From assembly GCA_963920635.1 (NCBI GenBank), contig OY987298.1:39587787-39651786 (forward strand): a stretch of 64,000 nt of DNA. The letters are read 5' to 3'. The stretch comes from Pseudeuparius sepicola. Its lineage: Eukaryota; Arthropoda; Insecta; Coleoptera; Anthribidae. A program made the position numbers and the translations under genes. Shown here one piece after another: positions 23,134 to 64,000 of the stretch. The stretch's first letter is position 1. Every line of letters starts with the position of its first letter. The notes under the pieces were generated by a model. It saw only the letters and a program-made list of their open reading frames with translations. It did not search any database and was not told the origin of the DNA.

Positions 23134-23803
23134 TTATAATGGTTCTATTCCCGCGAGGTCGTCATCAAAATGTGATTGCCAGTCGTCTTCGTCATCGTCA
23201 GATTCTTCCGTGTTCACTACAAATACTAAATCTTCAAGTGCTTCATCTAGGAGATGCTCTTTTTGGGTATATTCATCTATAATTTTCTCAGAGTGCTCAC
23301 ATACAGACACCCAATCAGCTGGTCCTATTTCCCCAAATCTCTGTCTTGCTAATGCTTCGACATCATTTAATTTAAATGAAACATTTCTTGTGGCAACCCA
23401 GTTTTTCATATTGGCCCATATTTTCTCGATTGGATTGAACTCTGGATGGTATGGAGGTAATCTTAATACACGATGACCATGTTCGGTCATAAGTGTATCC
23501 AATTTGTACTTACGATGTTTACTTTTATGCATCTTAATGTATAATGTATAATTGTATAATGTATAATTCTGGTTTTGTTAATGTGGGATCATGTGCAATA
23601 TTTCTTTGTTCAAGCCAGATTATCATATCTTTTTTTAAAGTCGCAGTAGTTGGGTCTTTGTCATATGCAACGTTATGATATGAGGCATTATCTACTACCA
23701 GCACAGATCTCGGAGGCAGATTTGGTAGTAACTGTTGTTTTACCCACTTCATAAAATTGTCATGGTTCATTTCGTCGTGATATTCGCCCGATTTTGTACC
23801 TAC
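23134..23803 (-). pseudogene. DDE_3-type transposase, C-terminal exon, frameshifted
   Basis: The minus-strand exon begins after a TTTTGCAG acceptor at 23804-23811 with the frame VGTKSGEYHDEMNHDNFMKW, then LPPRSVLVVDNASYHN, which holds the second catalytic Asp. After a 15-bp tandem duplication (23539-23568) and a one-base frame change it continues GHRVLRLPPYHPEFNPIEKI, which holds the third catalytic acidic residue. The tail is rich in Asp and Glu (EESDDDEDDW), typical of this insect transposase group. The first catalytic Asp and the DNA-binding helices would be in upstream exons, which I could not identify in 23804-24110. The copy is broken but not very old, since long frames remain. Confidence 0.85.
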
Positions 23804-48868: not shown

Positions 48869-48872
48869 TGTA
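48869..48872. other. Provirus target-site duplication, left (TGTA)
   Basis: TGTA precedes the 5' LTR here and follows the 3' LTR at 57529-57532. A 4-bp duplication is usual for errantiviruses. It shows that both LTRs belong to one integration event. Confidence 0.95.
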
Positions 48873-49155
48873 TGTTATATCCGACCTCAAGCATCACCTT
48901 GATCAGAACCTTGTTTTTACCCTTGATTCTGTTTACTGTTGGATATTATGTTCTCATTCTCTATTGTTCAAGATGCTTACTACAAAGATATCATTTTCCA
49001 TTGTATATTTTTCTAGAATGATTACTAGAACATATCATATTCCTTTTGAGTATTGTTAAAACTTGCTTACTGCAAGAATTGCAGAATTTGATCTTCCCTT
49101 TGTTTATTATATTCTTTTCCCATGAGAACCACAACACCTCAGCAGAACAGATTTG

Positions 49156-49163
49156 TATAAATA
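49156..49163 (+). promoter_or_regulatory. LTR TATA box
   Basis: TATAAATA in the 5' LTR, about 130 bases before its end. The same motif lies at 57407-57414 in the 3' LTR. It would place the start of the genomic RNA some 25-30 bases downstream. Confidence 0.7.
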
Positions 49164-49239
49164 GGACCTAGTAAAGTAAGAGTGTCAATTCTAGTCTTGT
49201 CTGTAGTCTAAGCCGAAACTCTGTAACTCGCGTTACTCA

Positions 49240-49245
49240 AATAAA
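49240..49245 (+). terminator. LTR polyadenylation signal
   Basis: AATAAA lies 40 bases before the end of the 5' LTR. The corresponding stretch is deleted in the 3' LTR, the copy that would normally direct 3' end formation. Confidence 0.75.
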
Positions 49246-49288
49246 AGTTTTTTAAAAAGTCTTCGTCTTCACGTCGCCCGTAACAATT

Positions 49289-49623: not shown

Positions 49624-50820
49624 ATGCCGGATAACGAAGCTATAAACTCTAATGTAAACAATGAAGCAAACGCTTCAAATAACGACGAAGTACCATTTAA
49701 ATTAAGCGAAATATTTTCTATCATCACTGAATACGATGGGGATCCAATCAATTTAAATACTTTTATCATTGCATGTGATAGGGCCATGTAAATGACTGTT
49801 GGCGACCAAGCCATTTTACTAGTAATAAAAATTAAAAATCAATTAAAGGGACGTGCAGCCCAACTCATTAATTCAAGAGACTTGAGTACCTGGAGGGAAA
49901 TCAAACAATTACTTAACGTTCATTTCGGAGATCCTCGCGATCTAACTTCATTAATTCAAGATTTACAAAGAATGTGTCAATCCCAAAATGAAAATGCTTT
50001 GACTTTTGTAGGCAGAGTTCAAACTCACTGCTCAAAAATGTATGCCCCAATAGGAAAACAAAGCCTTCTCACTAGGGAACAAAAAGAATCGCAAGCTACA
50101 TTAATCGATAGCATGTGTCTAAATACAGTTTTGACAGGTCTAGAACCAAGAATACGGCATCTAATTCGTGCTAGCAATCCACCAAACATGATGGATGCTA
50201 TAGCTTTAATTAAGAGAGAATTGCAACTTTCTTATTTAGAAAATCAAAAATTTCAGAGGCAAAATCGTGTACCAGTCTTCAATAATAATGTAAAGAGAAC
50301 TAATAATAGTTTTCCAAAATTTTGTAATTATTGCAAAAGAAATGGACATACTATCAACGAATGTCGAACAAAAAATCAAAATAATTATTACAGAAATGGT
50401 CCAAATCCTTCTAGCTTCTCTAACAATTTCCAACATAACTCCCAAAGAAATAATTTCTCCCAAAATAGGTTCCATCAAAGACCATCTTTTCCTCAGCAAA
50501 ATAATTTTCAAACTCCTTCTTTCCAACCTAGGAACCACCCTCAAAACTTCCAACCAAGAAATCAACCTCCTAGAAATTTTTCTAATAATGCTCCAAGAAA
50601 TAACTTCCCCAGAACTTTTAATAATAATTCAGGTTTCCAGCCATCTAATCAAAATTTTACTCCTAGATTCCCAAATTCAAATCCAAATAACCAAAATAGA
50701 ACTCCCCAACAACTTTATCTGGGCCAAAGCGAAAATTTTCAATTAACAGCCTCGGACCAGAATCCTATTCCGAACTTCAAGAATCTTGGTATGACCAATA
50801 CGGACCAAACGTTTGCATAA
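49624..50820 (+). pseudogene. gag: Errantivirus gag, with premature stop
   Basis: Gag forms the capsid and binds genomic RNA. The ATG at 49624 is followed by 55 codons and then TAA at 49789-49791. The same frame resumes at once and is open for 342 codons. The second part has a capsid-like helical region and one CCHC zinc knuckle (C-x2-C-x4-H-x4-C, 50323-50364), then a long Asn/Gln/Pro/Phe-rich tail. Upstream, the only other ATG is the short leader frame. The stop probably abolishes normal gag, unless it is read through or an internal Met is used. The 3' end overlaps the pol frame. Confidence 0.93.
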
Positions 50821-51323: not shown

Positions 51324-52141
51324 ATAATTTTGAAAGCGAAAATACGAGTTATAATATAAATAAGGTTACGATAGAACCGCGTTGCGAGAAAATATGCAGG
51401 TCTCATACGAATAGATATACGAATAAAGAAATGATTTTATGCGCACAACGAGTAGAAAAGGTATACGTGCCAAATGCTATAGTAAAAATAAACGAAGACG
51501 GTAATTTTTATACGACAATATTAAACGCTAATGCCATAACAAAGGATATTTGTTTCGAAGAATTTGAATTTGAGCCTTACATTAAAGAAACGAACGCTAG
51601 TACTAATATTATTTGTAATTTTAATAAAACGAAAAGCAGAGTAGAAGAAATAAAAGAATCATTAAGGCTAGAACATTTAAACGAAGAAGAAAAAGAATTA
51701 ATTACTAATTTATGTTTGAATTTTGAAGATATATTTTACTTTGACGGAGATTTCCTAAGTTTCACTAATGAAATAAAACATACTATCGATACAGGCGACA
51801 CTAAGCCAATTTTTACTAAATCTTATCGATATCCACAAGTTCACAAGGAAGAAGTAAAAACACAAATTAATAAAATGCTTTCTCAGGGAATAATTAGACC
51901 TTCTGTTTCACCATGGTCGTCCCCAGTATGGGTCGTTCCAAAAAAATTAGACGCTTCAGGCAAACAAAAATGGAGAATCGTAATTGATTATCGGAAATTA
52001 AATGAATTAACAGTTAATGACAGGTATCCACTGCCTAATATTTCAGATATATTAGATCAGTTGGGTAATTGCCATTATATTACTACTTTAGATTTGGCTT
52101 CTGGTTTTCAACAAATTGAAATGAATCTAGAAGACATTTAG
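51324..52141 (+). pseudogene. pol: Errantivirus pol, RT fingers and first palm part
   Basis: RT copies the genomic RNA into DNA. This part holds [14 protein letters not shown] and [13 protein letters not shown], with the first catalytic Asp of RT. Its frame is two ahead of the protease frame, so a frame change lies in the triplet run around 51286-51305. It ends at TAG (52139-52141). A further one-base frame change follows in a T run at about 52153, before the rest of the palm. A functional RT is not possible from this copy. Confidence 0.93.
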
Positions 52142-52809
52142 AAAACTGCTTTTCCGTTGAAAATGGTCATTTTGAATATTTACGTATGCCCTTTGGCCTT
52201 CGTAATGCGCCCTCAACTTTTCAGAGGGTTATGGATAATATACTAATGGGGATACAAAACGAAAAGTGCTTAGTTTACATGGACGACATTATTATTTATT
52301 CTTCCACAATTAATGAGCATATCTCTCGTATTACTGAAGTTTTTCAAAGATTAAGAAATTCAAATCTAAAAATACAGCCAGATAAGTGTGAATTCTTACG
52401 AAAAGAAGTAATTTATTTAGGACATGTTATTACACCTGAAGAGGTTAAACCAAATCCACAAAAGGTACAAGCTGTTATCGATTTTCCTCAACCTGCCAAT
52501 ACTAAACAAATTAAACAATTTTTGGGTCTTACTGGTTACTACAGGAAGTTTATTCCAAATTTCGCAAAAATGACAAAGCCTTTAACTCGACTTTTAAGAA
52601 AAGACGTACCATTTATTTTTGATAAAGATTGTCGTGAATCTTTCGAACAACTTAAAAATGCACTAATAACTTCACCAATTCTAATATATCCTAATTTTGA
52701 AAAAGAATTTGTTTTAACTACAGATGCAAGCGCTTTTGCTGTAGGCGCGGTACTTTCGCAAGGACCTATTGGAAATGATCTTCCCATAGCATACTTTTCA
52801 AAACCTTAA
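52142..52809 (+). pseudogene. pol: Errantivirus pol, RT palm and start of RNase H
   Basis: Begins within ENGHFEYLRMPFGLRNAP, then has the catalytic YMDD (52276-52287), the thumb (LGHVITPEEVKPNP, QFLGLTGYYRKFIPNF) and the start of RNase H with its first Asp in LTTDASAFAVGAVLS. It ends at TAA in an A run near 52802. RNase H continues in another frame 11 bases on, so this is the third frame change in pol. Confidence 0.93.
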
Positions 52810-52820
52810 GTCCAGCAGAA

Positions 52821-55157
52821 ATGAAATATAGCGTTATAGAGAAAGAACTTTTGGCAATAATTGCTGCCGTGAAAAACTATAGACCTTATCTTTTCGGACG
52901 AAAATTCTTATTGGTTACAGATCATAGACCTTTAACCTGGCTTTTCTCAATAAAAGATCCCGGTAGTCGTTTAGCACGTTGGCGACTTAAATTGGAAGAA
53001 TATAATTATCAAATAATTTATAAACCTGGAAAAATTAATCGAAATCCCGACGCTTTATCTCGAATCAAAATCAATCATATAAAAGAAGCTGTTTCCTTTC
53101 ATACTTCCCTAGACGAACCATCTACTTCCCATGATAATCCTCAAGACATTGACCCGCCTATTGACAATAATGAGACTGACGAAATTGCTATAATCTGTAA
53201 TGAATTTTACAGATTTTTTGATTTATACAAGACGACTTCAATGATCGACTATTCTAAAATCCAATACACAAATAATCAACTTTTAGACAAAACACACAAA
53301 GACATTGTACTAATTTTTCAACAAGACAAATTAACAGACCTTCACGAAAAAGTTATTGATGATTTACTTGAGCTAAATCCTGATTTTAACTATAATAAAG
53401 CAAATGTTCTTTCCAGTCAAACCGTAGCTAAAAGAAAATATTATATAATTCCTGTTCGTTTTAATTTTGAAACTGCAATACAAGTACTTTTCATATCTCT
53501 TTATTACAGTAAATATATATTCGAAGAAAATAACACTTATTACATTGAAAACAATCCAGATTTTCCAATTTTAAAAGTGTTTAATTTTTTGTTCTCAGAC
53601 AAAAACTTTCAATTAACAATTTGTCAGAACATTGTGACTATACCAGACGAAGACCAAATACCTATAATAATAGATCAATTTCATTCAGGCAAGACAAACT
53701 TACATCGAGGAATAAACGAAACAATTAGACGCATCAAACAAAAATATAATTGGACAGGACTAACTAAAGACGTTGAAACATTTATTCGACAGTGCGAAAT
53801 CTGCCAAAAGACAAAAATTTGTAGACAAAACTTGGACAGTCCCTTAGTCATTACCGAAACTCCTAAAACTCCTTTCGAAGGAATAAATATTGACATTCTA
53901 GAAATCCCAGTGAAAAATAATATCCTTACCATAAGAGACGAACTGACAAAATTTACCCAGGCTTATGCACTTCCTAATAAAACAGCGAGATCTGTAGTAG
54001 ACGTTCTTTTACTCTATTTTCAACATTTTGGAACTCCTTTAAGAATCCATTGCGATGTAGGTAAAGAATTTAATAATCAATTAATGAAAGATCTTTGTAA
54101 ATTATACAATATAAAATTAACTTTCTCTAGTGTTAGTCATCCGCAATCAAATGGCTCCTTAGAAAGATTTCATGCCACCTTAACTGAAATGATACGCGCG
54201 TGTAGTACAGAAAATCCTAACGAACACCCATTTCAAGTGCTTCCTTACGCTTGTATAGCATATAACAATTCTATAAATAAAACACACGGCTTTACTCCTT
54301 ACGAATTGCTATTCGGTCACACCTCGTCTCGACCTCCAGAAGTTTTGTATAATCAGCAAGAATTAATCTCTAAGTACGTTCGCGATTTAAACAATAAAAT
54401 AAAGCATTATTATGAAGTGGCAAGAAAGCGTACGGATATGCGCAAGCAAAAAGCAAAACAGCGATTTGATACACACGTTTCGGAGCAGCGACAATTTCGC
54501 GTAGGAGAAAAGGTTTATGTCAAGGAGTCCCAAATAAATAATAAACTAGCTAACAAATTTAATGGACCCTATAAAATTAAAGAAATTTATACGAATTCAG
54601 CTTTGCCACATAACCCAATTACTAATCAAACTACAAAAATGAATTTTGATATGCTAAAGAAATGTCACGAATTGGAGGAAGAAGAACTAACGGTTAAAGA
54701 ATTCTTTTATACTCTAGATCGAAAAATTCCTATTGGAAATAATAACGTTTCCATTGAACTGGGCAATTTATTTGATGCCCCTGAAAATATTTCCTTAGCC
54801 CTCTGTGTATCTAAAGACCTAGAAATGAATGCAGGAATTGCAAAAGAATTTAAGAATAAATTTGGACACGTAGGTGAACTAAAAAATCAAAATAAGTCAA
54901 TTGGTGAAATAGCAGTACTTCAACTTCCGACAAGAAATATTTATTATTTAATAACTAAAGAATTTTTCCATTATAAACCAACTTATGCTAATTTATTTAA
55001 TTGCTTAAAGGAATTACGAACAATGTGTCTCGAGAGCACTGATGAAAAAGATAAAATTATAGCTATACCCAAGTTAGCTTGTGGATTAGACAAATTAGAT
55101 TGGGACACAGTTCTCCCTATGATCAAATATATTTTCAAAAATACTGATAAAAAATAA
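52821..55157 (+). pseudogene. pol: Errantivirus pol, RNase H end, integrase and macro domain (778 codons, open)
   Basis: An uninterrupted frame. Residues 1-60 finish RNase H (Glu9, Asp34). Integrase follows, with a zinc-binding H-x6-H-x29-C-x2-C (His288, His295, Cys325, Cys328) and the catalytic triad Asp358, Asp412 and Glu448 with the canonical 35-residue spacing. The GPY/F motif is at 582-584. Residues 643-773 are a macro domain (separate entry). RNase H degrades the RNA template and integrase inserts the DNA copy. It has no ATG of its own role; it is the tail of a broken polyprotein. Its openness contrasts with the three breaks upstream. The stop is followed almost at once by the open env frame. 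Confidence 0.95.
54747..55139 (+). CDS. TARG1/OARD1-like macro domain fused to the pol C-terminus
   Basis: Residues 643-773 of the open pol frame. It starts VSIELGNLFDAPENISLALC, passes MNAGIAKEFKNKFG (ADP-ribose loop), GEIAVLQLPTRNIYYLITK, KPTYANLF and ends in IPKLACGLDKLDWDTVLPMI. This is the order of the macro fold in the ALC1/TARG1 class, which removes ADP-ribose from acidic residues and DNA. In that class a Lys in the YYLITK segment and an Asp in the CGLD segment catalyse the reaction; both are present (Lys713 at 54957-54959, Asp757 at 55089-55091). Known: the family's chemistry. Inferred: that the viral domain is active and released from, or tethered to, integrase. Confidence 0.88.
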
Positions 55158-55158
55158 T

Positions 55159-57075
55159 TTGTTATTTCGAAACAAGTTCCTAATTCTGAATCTTCGTTAC
55201 AGATTTTCTTTGTTCGCTACCGCTATGGCACAATATACACTGCGACCAATTAATAACACCATAGGCGTGTTCTATCAAGAGCAATCCGGACTCAAAATTT
55301 CTAATGACAAGTGGAGTTTATTGGTGTATAAAGACATTTCATCTCTAAAAACAACATTCGAAAATAATAATAAAATTTTAGAAAATATGCAATTTATAAT
55401 TCAACCAAAAGACGTACGAATGGCCGCCTTTCTAAGCGAAGTTAAGTCACATCTCACTTTACTAAATCAACTTTCCGAAAACATTGCGCTCAAATTTGAA
55501 GAATTAGCTATTGATGTAAAAAGATACAAAAGAGGTTTAATTAATGGTTTAGGGTCAGTTTGGAAATTTATTACCGGAAATTTAGACGCTTCAGACGGAC
55601 AGTATTATAACGATTATATCGACAAAATTAACAGAGACGAACACGAATTAGAAAAATTAATGAAGAAACAAATTTTAGTAACTACTTCAGTTATCAAAAA
55701 TTTTAATGACTCTATCAACAAATTACAAATTGATGAAATTACTTTTAATAATGACATAAAACAAATCGAAAATTACATTTATAACATTTCTGATAATTTT
55801 AATTATTATACTGCAAAATTACAAGTTTTAGAGATGGCCGAAAGACTCCTAGAATCCTATACCTTTATCGAAAGCAATCTAAATGACATTCTAAACTCTA
55901 TTACTTTTGCAAAGTTACATATCATTCACACGTCAGTTATAACTCCTGAAGACCTGGTTCATCATTTGCAAATAATCGCTCACACTTTAAACAAAAATAA
56001 TTTGCCCTTAACTCCTCAACTTCTAAATGTTGCAACTTATTTTGCTTTTATAGAACTAAAGGTTTTTCAAACAGAAAATAGGCTTGTTTGTATATTAGAC
56101 ATTCCTTTAGTAGAACCTCAATGGTATACTCTTTATAGAATTTATCCTATTCCAATTTTCGACAATAAAACTGGATTTTATCACATGGTATCCACTGATA
56201 CTAAATTTGTAGCAAAAAGCGATGACCCGACTCTCTATGTACTTCTCTATGATATAAAAAATTGTAAAGAACTAGCATTTGATTTAATAATGTGCAAAGA
56301 TTTATATCCTACTCCTATTGACTCACATTCAAGATGTGAAGCTCAATTATTAGAGGTAAAAACCCATTTACCTAATACTTGTGACATAGTCACAATTTCA
56401 ATTGAAAGTTACAATGTACAATTGATTCAAGAGAATCAATGGTTAATAATTTTAAGTGAAATATTTCCTATATCTATTAAGTGTAAACATCAAAATCCTT
56501 TGACTATAATGCTAGACAAAACTTCAATTTTAACGTTAAAATCCGAATGCATTGCCTATATTGGAAGTACTAAAGTTCAAACGAAAAATTTAAATAAATC
56601 TAATCAAACCTATAAATTTCACCCAATTAATATACCATTTGAATGTTGCAAAGAAACTCCAAATAAATTAAAATTTCCTGGCTTAAAACCTTTACAACTA
56701 AATAAATTTAATTATGACGATTTAAATGTCGCAAAGCATAAATTAGACGAATATGCAAAGGATCTTGATAATATTATTAACGAACAAACTGTAAATAAGT
56801 ATACGCCAATATTAACATATCTATCCATTACTTTAATCATACTTTTAATTATTGTGTACTTTTATTTTAAATGTAAAAAGTCTAGGAACATTAAAATAGG
56901 CATTATTACTACTAATAACGGAGACGATCCTCCACAACCTCCTAGAACTCGAAATCGCGTTTTTCAAAATTTAAGAAAATTTGTTACTGTCAAAAGAAGA
57001 CCTTCGTATAGATTGGACGAACCTCGCGAAGAAGAAGAAATTGAACTAAATTCTAATACTAAAACATATGCCTAA
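55159..57075 (+). CDS. env: Errantivirus envelope (F-like fusion protein), open frame
   Basis: Open for 638 codons without interruption. The first ATG is at 55225 (616 residues), but the frame is open upstream and a splice acceptor (CTTCGTTACAG, ending 55202) lies within it. The likely start is therefore the leader exon at 49501. A basic cleavage site RYKR (55522-55533) precedes GLINGLGSVW, which resembles the fusion peptide of errantivirus and baculovirus F-type proteins. A membrane segment lies at about 56806-56868, followed by a basic cytoplasmic tail of about 66 residues. Function by family: membrane fusion. It remains open although gag and pol are broken. Confidence 0.93.
   Translation: MLFRNKFLILNLRYRFSLFATAMAQYTLRPINNTIGVFYQEQSGLKISNDKWSLLVYKDISSLKTTFENNNKILENMQFIIQPKDVRMAAFLSEVKSHLTLLNQLSENIALKFEELAIDVKRYKRGLINGLGSVWKFITGNLDASDGQYYNDYIDKINRDEHELEKLMKKQILVTTSVIKNFNDSINKLQIDEITFNNDIKQIENYIYNISDNFNYYTAKLQVLEMAERLLESYTFIESNLNDILNSITFAKLHIIHTSVITPEDLVHHLQIIAHTLNKNNLPLTPQLLNVATYFAFIELKVFQTENRLVCILDIPLVEPQWYTLYRIYPIPIFDNKTGFYHMVSTDTKFVAKSDDPTLYVLLYDIKNCKELAFDLIMCKDLYPTPIDSHSRCEAQLLEVKTHLPNTCDIVTISIESYNVQLIQENQWLIILSEIFPISIKCKHQNPLTIMLDKTSILTLKSECIAYIGSTKVQTKNLNKSNQTYKFHPINIPFECCKETPNKLKFPGLKPLQLNKFNYDDLNVAKHKLDEYAKDLDNIINEQTVNKYTPILTYLSITLIILLIIVYFYFKCKKSRNIKIGIITTNNGDDPPQPPRTRNRVFQNLRKFVTVKRRPSYRLDEPREEEEIELNSNTKTYA
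55192..55202 (+). promoter_or_regulatory. Env splice acceptor
   Basis: CTTCGTTACAG, 22 bases upstream of the first env ATG. Together with the donor at 49518 it would remove gag and pol (49518-55202) and join the leader exon in phase with env. Confidence 0.7.
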
Positions 57076-57123: not shown

Positions 57124-57528
57124 TGTTATATCCGACCTCAAGCATCACCTTGATCATAACCTTGTTTTTACCCTTGATTCTGTTTACTGTTGGATATTAT
57201 GTTCTCATTCTCTATTGTTCAAGGTGCTTACTACAAAGATATCATTTTCCATTGTATATTGTTCTAGAATGATTACTAGAACATATCATATTCCCTTTGA
57301 GTATTGTTAAAACTTGCTTACTGCAAGAATTGCAGAATTTGATCTTCCCTTTGTTTATTATATTCTTTTCCCATGAGAACCACAACACCTCAGCATCACA
57401 GATCTGTATAAATAGGACCTAGTAAAGTAAGAGTGTCAATTCTAGTCTTGTCTGTAGTCTAAGCCGAAACTCTGTAACTCGCGTTAAAAGTTTTTTAAAA
57501 AGTCTTCGTCTTCACGTCGCCCGTAACA
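57124..57528 (+). repeat. 3' LTR (405 bp), polyadenylation signal lost
   Basis: Same ends as the 5' LTR (TGTTA...TAACA). The TATA box is at 57407-57414. Eight bases are missing after 57486 (GCGTTA joins AAAG). This removes the AATAAA found in the 5' copy. TGTA, the target duplication, follows at 57529-57532. Confidence 0.97.
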
Positions 57529-57532
57529 TGTA

Positions 57533-61117: not shown

Positions 61118-63418
61118 GGCTGCCGCCAATTTGAACTTGCAAGACCGTCTGAACTCTATGCCGGTGACATCCGGCAACACCGCCGTTTCCAGCCCCGCAC
61201 ATCGCGTCTCAAAAGAGAAGACGGTGAAGGTAATAGTCGGGGAGCTGAGAGAAATGCAACAGTTTTAGGAAGGCTGGTTTTTTGATACAGTGTAGTATTT
61301 AGGGTGTATAAGAATAGTCTGCCGTCAATCAGCCAGTTTCGTTAGCGTTTGGGGCAGGGGCGGCTTCAAAGTTGTAAAAAAACCAAGTATGTCGCAAATG
61401 TTTTAGAAAATCTAAAACTTGGTTTATTTAGTAGCAAGACAACTAAACAACGATGTGGATGTAGTCAGCCTTGAAAATATTGCAACAAGCCGCGTCAGCA
61501 GCGCTTCAAACTCATAAACAATATACAGGGTGTCTCACCACGAACTGCATCGATCGATATCACAAAAAGTAAGCATATAATTTTTTTGAAAATTTGGCAG
61601 CCGACCAATGTCAATGAGTACTATTCATTTAAAGTATTTTAAAAATGGCGGCACTTCCTGTTACACCGGAAGTCGATGACAACTTCGTTATTTTAAATGG
61701 AACACCCTATATTTTATTGCATTTTTGAATTCTACGGAAAATTCTAGGTACATTTCGTGTATCATGTCCTATACCTAAATTAAACCGTTTTCGAGATATT
61801 TGCCATTTTAGAGAAAAAATGACAGATGCATACCCGTACTTAATTGACAGTTTCTTCATAACAAATACATATTTCTTAACGCGCTCTTGGCATTTTGCAG
61901 TCAAAGGCTTGGTGCAGAGAAATACCATAAAGAAAATTTCCGAACTTGTACAGTTTCAAATGGAAACCCCCATTTTTTGGTTGTAGCCGTATTCAGCACA
62001 AAAAATTAGGGAAAGTTTGTGTGTAGTTCCCTATACCTAAATGTTAGCATTTTCGATTTATTTACAAAAAACTAATTTTCCACTTCTTCATCAAGGGGAG
62101 GGGGCGTTTTCTTAAGTTTGATGAATCTAGTTGGCCATGGCTGATTATACGATTGTCAGAGAATGAAGAAATGTCATTTAGTTTAAAATTATTGTAAACA
62201 GTGCCGGCACGGTTAAATTACACAAACGAAGACTATTCAAATTTATTTATTATTTATTTATTACATTTGCTGATAATAAATAAATTTAAATATTAAATAG
62301 TCTTTGTTTGTGTAATTTAACCGTGCCGGCATTGTTTACAATAATTTTAAACTAAATGACATTTCTTCAATCTCTGACAATCGTATAATCAGCCATGGCC
62401 AACTAGATTAATCAAACTTAAGAAAGCGCCCCCGTGATAAAGAAGTGGAAAATTAGTTTTTTGTAAATAAATCGAAAATGCATTTAGATATAGGGAACTA
62501 AACACAAACTTGCCCTAATTTTTTGTGCTGAATACGGCTGCAACAAAAAAATGGGGGTTTCTATTTGAAAATTTTGAGTTTTTGGCATTTTTTGAATTAA
62601 TATTTGAATAATTTTTTGTGAGCACCCGTACAAGATCGGAAAGTTTCTTTATTGTATTTCTCTGCACCAAGCCTTTGACTGCAAAATGACAAGAGCGCGT
62701 TAAGAAATATGTAGCCGTTATGAAGAAACTGTCAATTAAGTACGGGTCTGCATCTGTCATTTTTTCTCTAAAATAGCAAATATCTCAAAAACGGTTTAAT
62801 TTAGGTATAGGATATGATACATGAAATGTACCTAGAATTTTCCGTAGAATCCGAAAATGCAATAAAATATAGGGTGTTCCATTTAAAATAACGAATTTGT
62901 CATCGACTTCCGGTATAACCGGAAGTGCTGCCATTTTTAAAATACTTTAAATCAATAGTACTCACTGACATTGGTCATCTGCCAAATTTTCAAAAAAACT
63001 CTCTGTTTACTTTTTGAGATATCGATCGATGCAGCTCGAGGTGAGTTTGAAGCGCTGCTGACGCGGCCCGTTGCAATATTTTTAAGGCTGACCACATCCA
63101 CATCGTTGTTTAGTTGTTTTGTTTCTAAATAAACCAAGTTTTAGATTTTCTAAAACTGTTGGACATACTTGGTTTTTTTACAACTTTGAAGCCGCCCCTG
63201 CGCCAAACGCTAACGAAACTGGCTGACTGACGGCAGGCTATTCTTATACACCCTAAATACTACACTGTATCAAAGAAAACAGCCTTCCTAAATGTTGCAT
63301 TTTTTCGTCACTCACCTCTCGGACTATAAAGAAGACGAAAGCGGCTGGCGGCTAGCTATGTAGCCGGATGGACTCTCAGAAACCCCCAAGACATTGCAAG
63401 TTCAAATTGGCCGCAGCT
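61118..63418. mobile_element. 2.3-kb foldback (near-palindrome)
   Basis: Two arms of about 1.1 kb (61118-62233 and 62313-63418) are inverted copies around 62268. Examples are CGGCTGCCGCCAATTTGAAC at the left end, mirrored at the right, and GTGCCGGCACGG / CCGTGCCGGCA near the centre. The arms contain internal TACAGGGTGTCTC and ACACCCTATA motifs. Differences between arms include an extra TACAGGGTG segment in the left arm (61524-61545). No intact frame is present. Confidence 0.85.
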
Positions 63419-63545
63419 GAATTCGCGGAACGCTGTCTCGCCCTCGTCACTGGGTCTAATAATTCTTTAATTGCTGTTCTTTGTGCATATTACCACATCA
63501 GTTTTGCATTTATTTCGGCGCGAATTTAATTTAAAGCAGATTTCT

Positions 63546-63980
<435 letters not shown>

Positions 63981-64000
63981 GGATATATAATCACTTTATT

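Follow-up and report, generated by a model that had tools for sequence, protein, structure and literature searches.

Does the pol gene of an insect errantivirus encode an ADP-ribose hydrolase? The question is raised by a provirus in a 64,000-nt stretch of the genome of the anthribid beetle Pseudeuparius sepicola (GenBank contig OY987298.1, positions 39,587,787 to 39,651,786, forward strand; hereafter the window). The errantivirus-like element lies between long terminal repeats (LTRs) and contains a gag open reading frame (ORF), reverse transcriptase (RT) divided between two ORFs, a 778-codon pol piece and an ORF for an F-type env. A first-pass annotation of the letters alone had placed a macro domain of TARG1/OARD1 type behind the GPY motif of the integrase, with the two catalytic residues of that class. 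Sequence match at class level and predicted fold both confirm this: the domain resembles TARG1 more closely than it does other macro classes and is a TARG1/OARD1-class macro domain. In sequence and fold matches it has TARG1 and DarG as its closest relatives, rather than RNA-virus macro domains. Alignment shows that both catalytic positions of TARG1 are kept, as Lys713 and Asp757. Asp757 matches the catalytic Asp of TARG1 (Asp125). The catalytic Lys of TARG1 is Lys84 (PMC8501950). The last strand of the macro fold is clipped in the window copy by a stop at codon 139, and the Pfam macro model stayed under its cut-off when the whole 778-aa pol piece was scanned. We looked for a lack of any profile or fold match and for absence of the domain from every related provirus; neither was seen and the identification survived.

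The 769-Mb genome (16 contigs) was searched for further copies. With the window macro domain as query, 150 places were scored out of 886 first-look candidates, and the domain is free of stops in every one of them, the window included. Apart from the window, the 149 places are 95–96% identical and many lie in open frames of 1498 aa. We selected 28 macro-chosen loci; as L007 and L009 coincide, these amount to the window plus 26 further copies. The domain reads through 147 to 156 codons, last strand included, in all 26 other copies, compared to 139 in the window. The whole upstream stretch examined (166–500 codons) is also open in frame in 20 of the 26; it is broken in L002, L003, L004, L005, L006 and L028. 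Because these copies had been found by the domain itself, we added a set chosen by integrase core: 40 copies hand-picked from 150 scored of 5527 candidates. This set avoids the earlier copies and leans to ones off the macro-query list, and is not a random sample. In this set 32 of the 40 copies show a macro match. In 17 of the 40, one open frame runs from integrase into the domain; 14 of these 17 stop at the usual family stop or at most one codon from it, and all 17 keep both Lys and Asp. The integrase-macro fusion is a property of the element family and not of one copy.

Comparison of related proviruses indicated a deficit of non-synonymous variants in the domain in both samples. As non-synonymous sites outnumber synonymous ones about fourfold, the neutral expectation is approximately four non-synonymous variants per synonymous one. 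With variants shared by descent, the p values serve as a guide only: 18 synonymous and 10 non-synonymous variant codons were counted at 25 macro-chosen loci (24 copies; p 3.3e-7), and 19 and 26 in the 13 intact integrase-chosen copies (p 4.5e-4), from which the frame-shifted L122, L123, L142 and L156 were left out. The macro-chosen sample favours conserved domains and the integrase-chosen sample leans against them. For comparison with 150 upstream codons the frame-shifted L006 was left out (24 loci representing 23 copies; the duplicate adds no variant codon), giving synonymous/non-synonymous counts of 21/11 upstream and 16/9 in the macro domain. In the 13 integrase-chosen copies the C-terminal part of the integrase shows 13/11 and the core, by which the copies were chosen, 13/0. 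Between L003 and L007, which represent two subfamilies, the synonymous rate (dS) is 0.15 and the non-synonymous rate (dN) 0.009.

The domain was also sought in other proteins. Three protein searches yielded 45 proteins, which were classified by local profiles built partly from these same 45. Twenty-six are pol-like (RT or RNase H plus integrase matches), 13 have no RT or integrase core match and six are small. Among the pol-like proteins the domain is found after RNase H in 17, after integrase in five and before RT in four. The H2C2 zinc-binding domain follows in 15 of the 17; the other two (P0016 and P0043) show no integrase. The source organism is given for 15 of the 45 proteins and six of the 26. 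These six carry the domain after RNase H and come from the beetles Harmonia axyridis (P0001, P0014) and Rhynchophorus ferrugineus (P0026) and the aphids Uroleucon formosanum (P0016, P0043) and Sipha flava (P0019). All 26 pol-like proteins retain the Lys and 25 the Asp, the remaining protein being truncated. P0001 and P0010 have a second, decayed macro domain directly before integrase (1.4e-7 and 7.6e-15). Viral contigs gave no relative with the window domain alone as query; a seven-row alignment query found 97 places, of which 80 loci were kept. Four of them, added as distant rows to the larger macro tree described below, did not together make up one side of a branch.

Some of the remaining proteins are of a different kind. 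Seven (P0013, P0020, P0024, P0025, P0030, P0032 and P0036; 877–1012 aa; the named ones from beetles) have, besides an intact TARG1-type macro domain, a second stretch that is macro-like by group profile, and show no RT or integrase match; they are possibly host genes. Their second domain scored 38.1 against intact macro domains (maximum of 50 shuffles, 17.5). A tandem origin shared with the decayed domains of P0001 and P0010 is not supported, as the score of 18.6 was below the shuffle maximum of 23.1 (50 shuffles). P0038, from a longhorn beetle (Aromia), has SAP, Pfam gag, integrase C-terminal and macro matches and no RT. P0040 has a macro domain and a GDSL-lipase match under its cut-off, with no RT or integrase match.

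The first-pass annotation had proposed capture from a host OARD1-like gene, of which acquisition is supported and this host's OARD1 as donor is not: the trees put the domain among retroelement copies. A sister errantivirus family is found in the same genome (L158 and L161, G000:C10:7322572-7329961). Among different-looking rows that were fetched, three and two more (L159, L160) belong to the window family and one to the sister family. Identity between the sister and the window element is 71% over 353 aa in the integrase part, 58% over 254 aa in the RNase H-linker part, 67–74% in the main RT pieces, 41–57% in env and only 52% in the macro domain. The sister macro domain is located before RT, behind a protease-like stretch recognised by eye. 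Between its integrase and env matches the sister copy has 133 nt and no macro match, which supports acquisition of the domain behind integrase by the window family. In an integrase tree of the window and 22 database proteins found via their macro domain, the after-integrase position requires at least three changes on well-supported branches (long row P0015 included), which may be gains or losses. A larger macro tree groups the window family with P0037, P0001 and P0014, in which the domain follows RNase H (support 91/90). Forcing the window and sister macro domains into one clade gave a marginal p of 0.043 in the approximately unbiased (AU) test, for a pair named after seeing the data. The module was probably gained or moved more than once, by host capture, by exchange between elements, or both. 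No host OARD1 gene was seen among the 150 places scored for each of three queries (of 886, 845 and 871 candidates); element copies filled these places and this is not evidence of absence.

We propose that the Pol-borne TARG1-class domain erases host ADP-ribosylation at element DNA or nearby proteins, a reading to which we assign a probability of about 0.6. The errantivirus family would have gained the domain at the C-terminus of Pol, directly behind integrase. Together with integrase and RT the domain would enter the particle and the pre-integration complex, where it would strip ADP-ribose set by host transferases on the element DNA or the proteins around it, presumably using the same Lys/Asp mechanism as TARG1 and DarG. 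The domain is most likely an active ADP-ribose hydrolase on or beside integrase; we infer its activity, its staying attached to or near integrase, and a nucleic acid or nearby protein as its substrate. Erasure is favoured over mere binding because the catalytic pair is kept. Nucleic acid or the proteins of the integration complex are plausible substrates because the domain neighbours RNase H and integrase and because TARG1 and DarG act on DNA. Several observations weigh against this proposal. The window copy is decaying: it differs from the other 27 loci by 4 to 6 non-synonymous and 0 to 14 synonymous variants (dN/dS 0.08–0.75, one undefined). The domain contains stops in two of 150 scored places of 845 candidates (P0003 query) and in one of 150 of 871 (P0001 macro domain query), eight of the 40 integrase-chosen copies have no macro match, and integrase-chosen copies hold non-synonymous variants near the active site. 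The sister copy, whose frames are broken, has Gly at the catalytic Asp position. In a macro tree of the same 23 rows as the integrase tree, the well-supported branches are compatible with a single origin per position.

That the domain is a passenger, a functionless host fragment fused by chance or reached by read-through, could be argued from the damage to the window copy in RT and at the domain end and from the other copies with stops or without the domain. This is very improbable, being already contradicted by the absence of stops in all 150 places scored with the window domain, the fact that in all 26 other copies the domain continues in frame beyond the point where the window copy stops, the non-synonymous deficit and the recurrence in 26 pol-like proteins; the intact domain in other copies and the deficit likewise reject a read-through or single-copy artefact. 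A function away from the integration complex is a more serious competitor, although we consider it unlikely. Several RNA viruses have macro domains that are thought to strip antiviral mono-ADP-ribose, and by analogy the Pol domain might remove the mono-ADP-ribose of host antiviral transferases from viral or host proteins. The fold matches include viral macro domains, and the varied placement in Pol suggests that having the domain counts for more than where it lies; the nearest relatives, however, are TARG1 and DarG and not the RNA-virus domains. The domain may instead be a reader that binds ADP-ribosylated chromatin and steers integrase to PARP-active sites, as the chromodomain may do in chromoviruses. 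A structure of the macro-domain protein ALC1 with a poly-ADP-ribosylated nucleosome is among those listed, and a chromodomain occupies the same place behind the GPY module (excerpts of PMC2774666). Nearly all fused proteins retain the two catalytic residues, which a reader would not both require, and the domain lies after RNase H in 17 of the 26 pol-like proteins and before RT in four. Reading rather than erasing thus appears quite unlikely, and the eraser beside integrase is preferred.

The features of the provirus are listed in Table 1. It has LTRs and a short target-site duplication (TSD), the RT-RNase H-integrase order with H2C2 and GPY, and an F-type env 3' of pol. The LTR pair aligns over 413 columns with seven mismatches and one gap. 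The window copy is damaged: RT is split over two ORFs, and the pol frame stops prematurely. A Pfam scan up to E 1 listed the macro domain and no chromodomain behind integrase. The GPY motif carries a name also used in excerpts of PMC2774666.

Table 1. Features of the errantivirus-like provirus (window coordinates)
Feature	Position	Strand	Evidence
Left TSD copy, TGTA, 4 bp	48869..48872	no strand	sequence read
5' LTR, starts TGTTA, ends TAACA	48873..49285	+	direct repeats; LTR-LTR alignment
gag ORF	49792..50820	+	Retrotrans_gag E 0.0028, under its cut-off
pol piece, N-terminal RT part	51431..52141	+	RVT_1 E 2.2e-8
pol piece, separate ORF in window copy: C-terminal RT part and RNase H start	52186..52809	+	RVT_1 E 2.5e-23; RT_RNaseH_2 E 3.6e-18
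778-codon pol piece: RNase H end, linker, integrase, macro domain	52821..55157	+	ORF list, Pfam scan
RNase H-integrase linker, aa 82-276	53064..53648	+	decayed macro domain as suggestion only
Integrase H2C2 zinc-binding domain, aa 277-332	53649..53816	+	PF17921 E 3.5e-16
Integrase core, aa 351-482	53871..54266	+	PF00665 (rve) aa 351-441 E 5.4e-10; local profile 351-482
GPY motif, integrase C-terminal region	54564..54572	+	read from translation
TARG1/OARD1-type macro domain, aa 640-778, last strand clipped in window copy	54738..55154	+	
Lys713 codon, aligned with TARG1 catalytic Lys	54957..54959	+	
Asp757 codon, aligned with TARG1 catalytic Asp	55089..55091	+	
env ORF, baculovirus F-type (Baculo_F)	55159..57075	+	PF12259 E 3.5e-37
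3' LTR	57124..57528	+	direct repeats; LTR-LTR alignment
Right TSD copy, TGTA	57529..57532	no strand	sequence read

The linker between RNase H and integrase (window 53064-53648) may itself be a decayed macro domain, a suggestion only, from signals above shuffles yet weak. It matches the P0012 linker (E 2.8e-6) and does not match the macro profile significantly (E 0.41). Against intact macro domains the probability is 0.9% for the window linker alone and 30.7% when combined with P0012. Three linkers together scored 26.9 against intact macro domains (maximum of 100 shuffles, 21.3; probability 19%) and 34.6 against the decayed domains of P0001 and P0010 (shuffle maximum 21.6; probability 53%). No macro signal came from two further linker groups. 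The linker fold prediction was unusable (mean predicted local distance difference test score 48.5) and was not used.

Other repeats were observed in the genome and the window. At G000:C9:4193610-4327449 there is an array of integrase matches with mostly regular 6,013-base spacing, three units of which (L130-L132) have no macro match. Window 61278-63277 contains approximately 2 kb of nested inverted repeats (86–97% complementary) resembling a foldback element, and 63434-64000 is a long TAGA tetranucleotide repeat. A 132-aa ORF on the minus strand (23134-23532) has a motif reminiscent of the end of a mariner/Tc1-type transposase.

Among known systems, human TARG1/OARD1/C6orf130 (4j5r, 4j5s) is a free-standing host enzyme, whereas the window domain is part of a retroelement Pol. 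The DarG macrodomain (5m3e, 5m3i) belongs to a bacterial antitoxin and shows 23–25% identity; the macro domains of alphaviruses and rubella virus have the same fold with 9–17% identity among the matches listed. Errantiviruses (gypsy-type Ty3/gypsy elements with F-type env) are alike in LTRs with a 4-bp duplication, pol order, GPY integrase and Baculo_F env, and the window element differs from them by the macro domain behind integrase. The chromodomain has a fold other than that of the macro domain and is a reader, not an enzyme. Chromovirus integrases likewise carry it as an extra module behind the GPY/F module, according to excerpts of PMC2774666. The expectation that retroviral pol encodes no such domain has to be qualified. 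Excerpts of a review citing Basta et al. (2009, J Virol) report additional ORFs for macro-domain proteins in epsilon-like endogenous retroviruses (ERVs) of ray-finned fish (PMC4977317); by this description alone they are also retroviral elements with a macro-domain protein, but as additional ORFs. Among the open-licence papers listed by the literature search there was no report of a macro domain in errantivirus or Ty3/gypsy pol, which is not absence from print. A term search of the main text of two recent insect ERV papers (PMC13172572 and PMC12992720) gave 0 occurrences of "macro" and "ADP-ribos". Viral macro domains are already known, and the fusion into Ty3/gypsy Pol is the apparent new element.

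Such fusions can go unnoticed, as the Pfam macro model falls under its cut-off in the full pol piece and PF01661 is present in the precomputed annotation of only two of the 26 pol-like proteins (P0022 and P0029). A wider interpretation is speculative and unlikely to hold as a whole: the TARG1-type eraser may be an interchangeable module that the Pol of insect Ty3/gypsy elements, and perhaps of others, has acquired or relocated several times, in response to a host defence that ADP-ribosylates retroelement DNA or integration complexes. On this view the enzyme would act on the element's own cDNA, as an anti-defence counterpart of DarG, and the stretch between RNase H and integrase may still hold older copies of the module in the form of decayed macro domains. 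If the domain is active, it would pose a testable question, whether ADP-ribosylation of DNA or integration complexes restricts retroelements.
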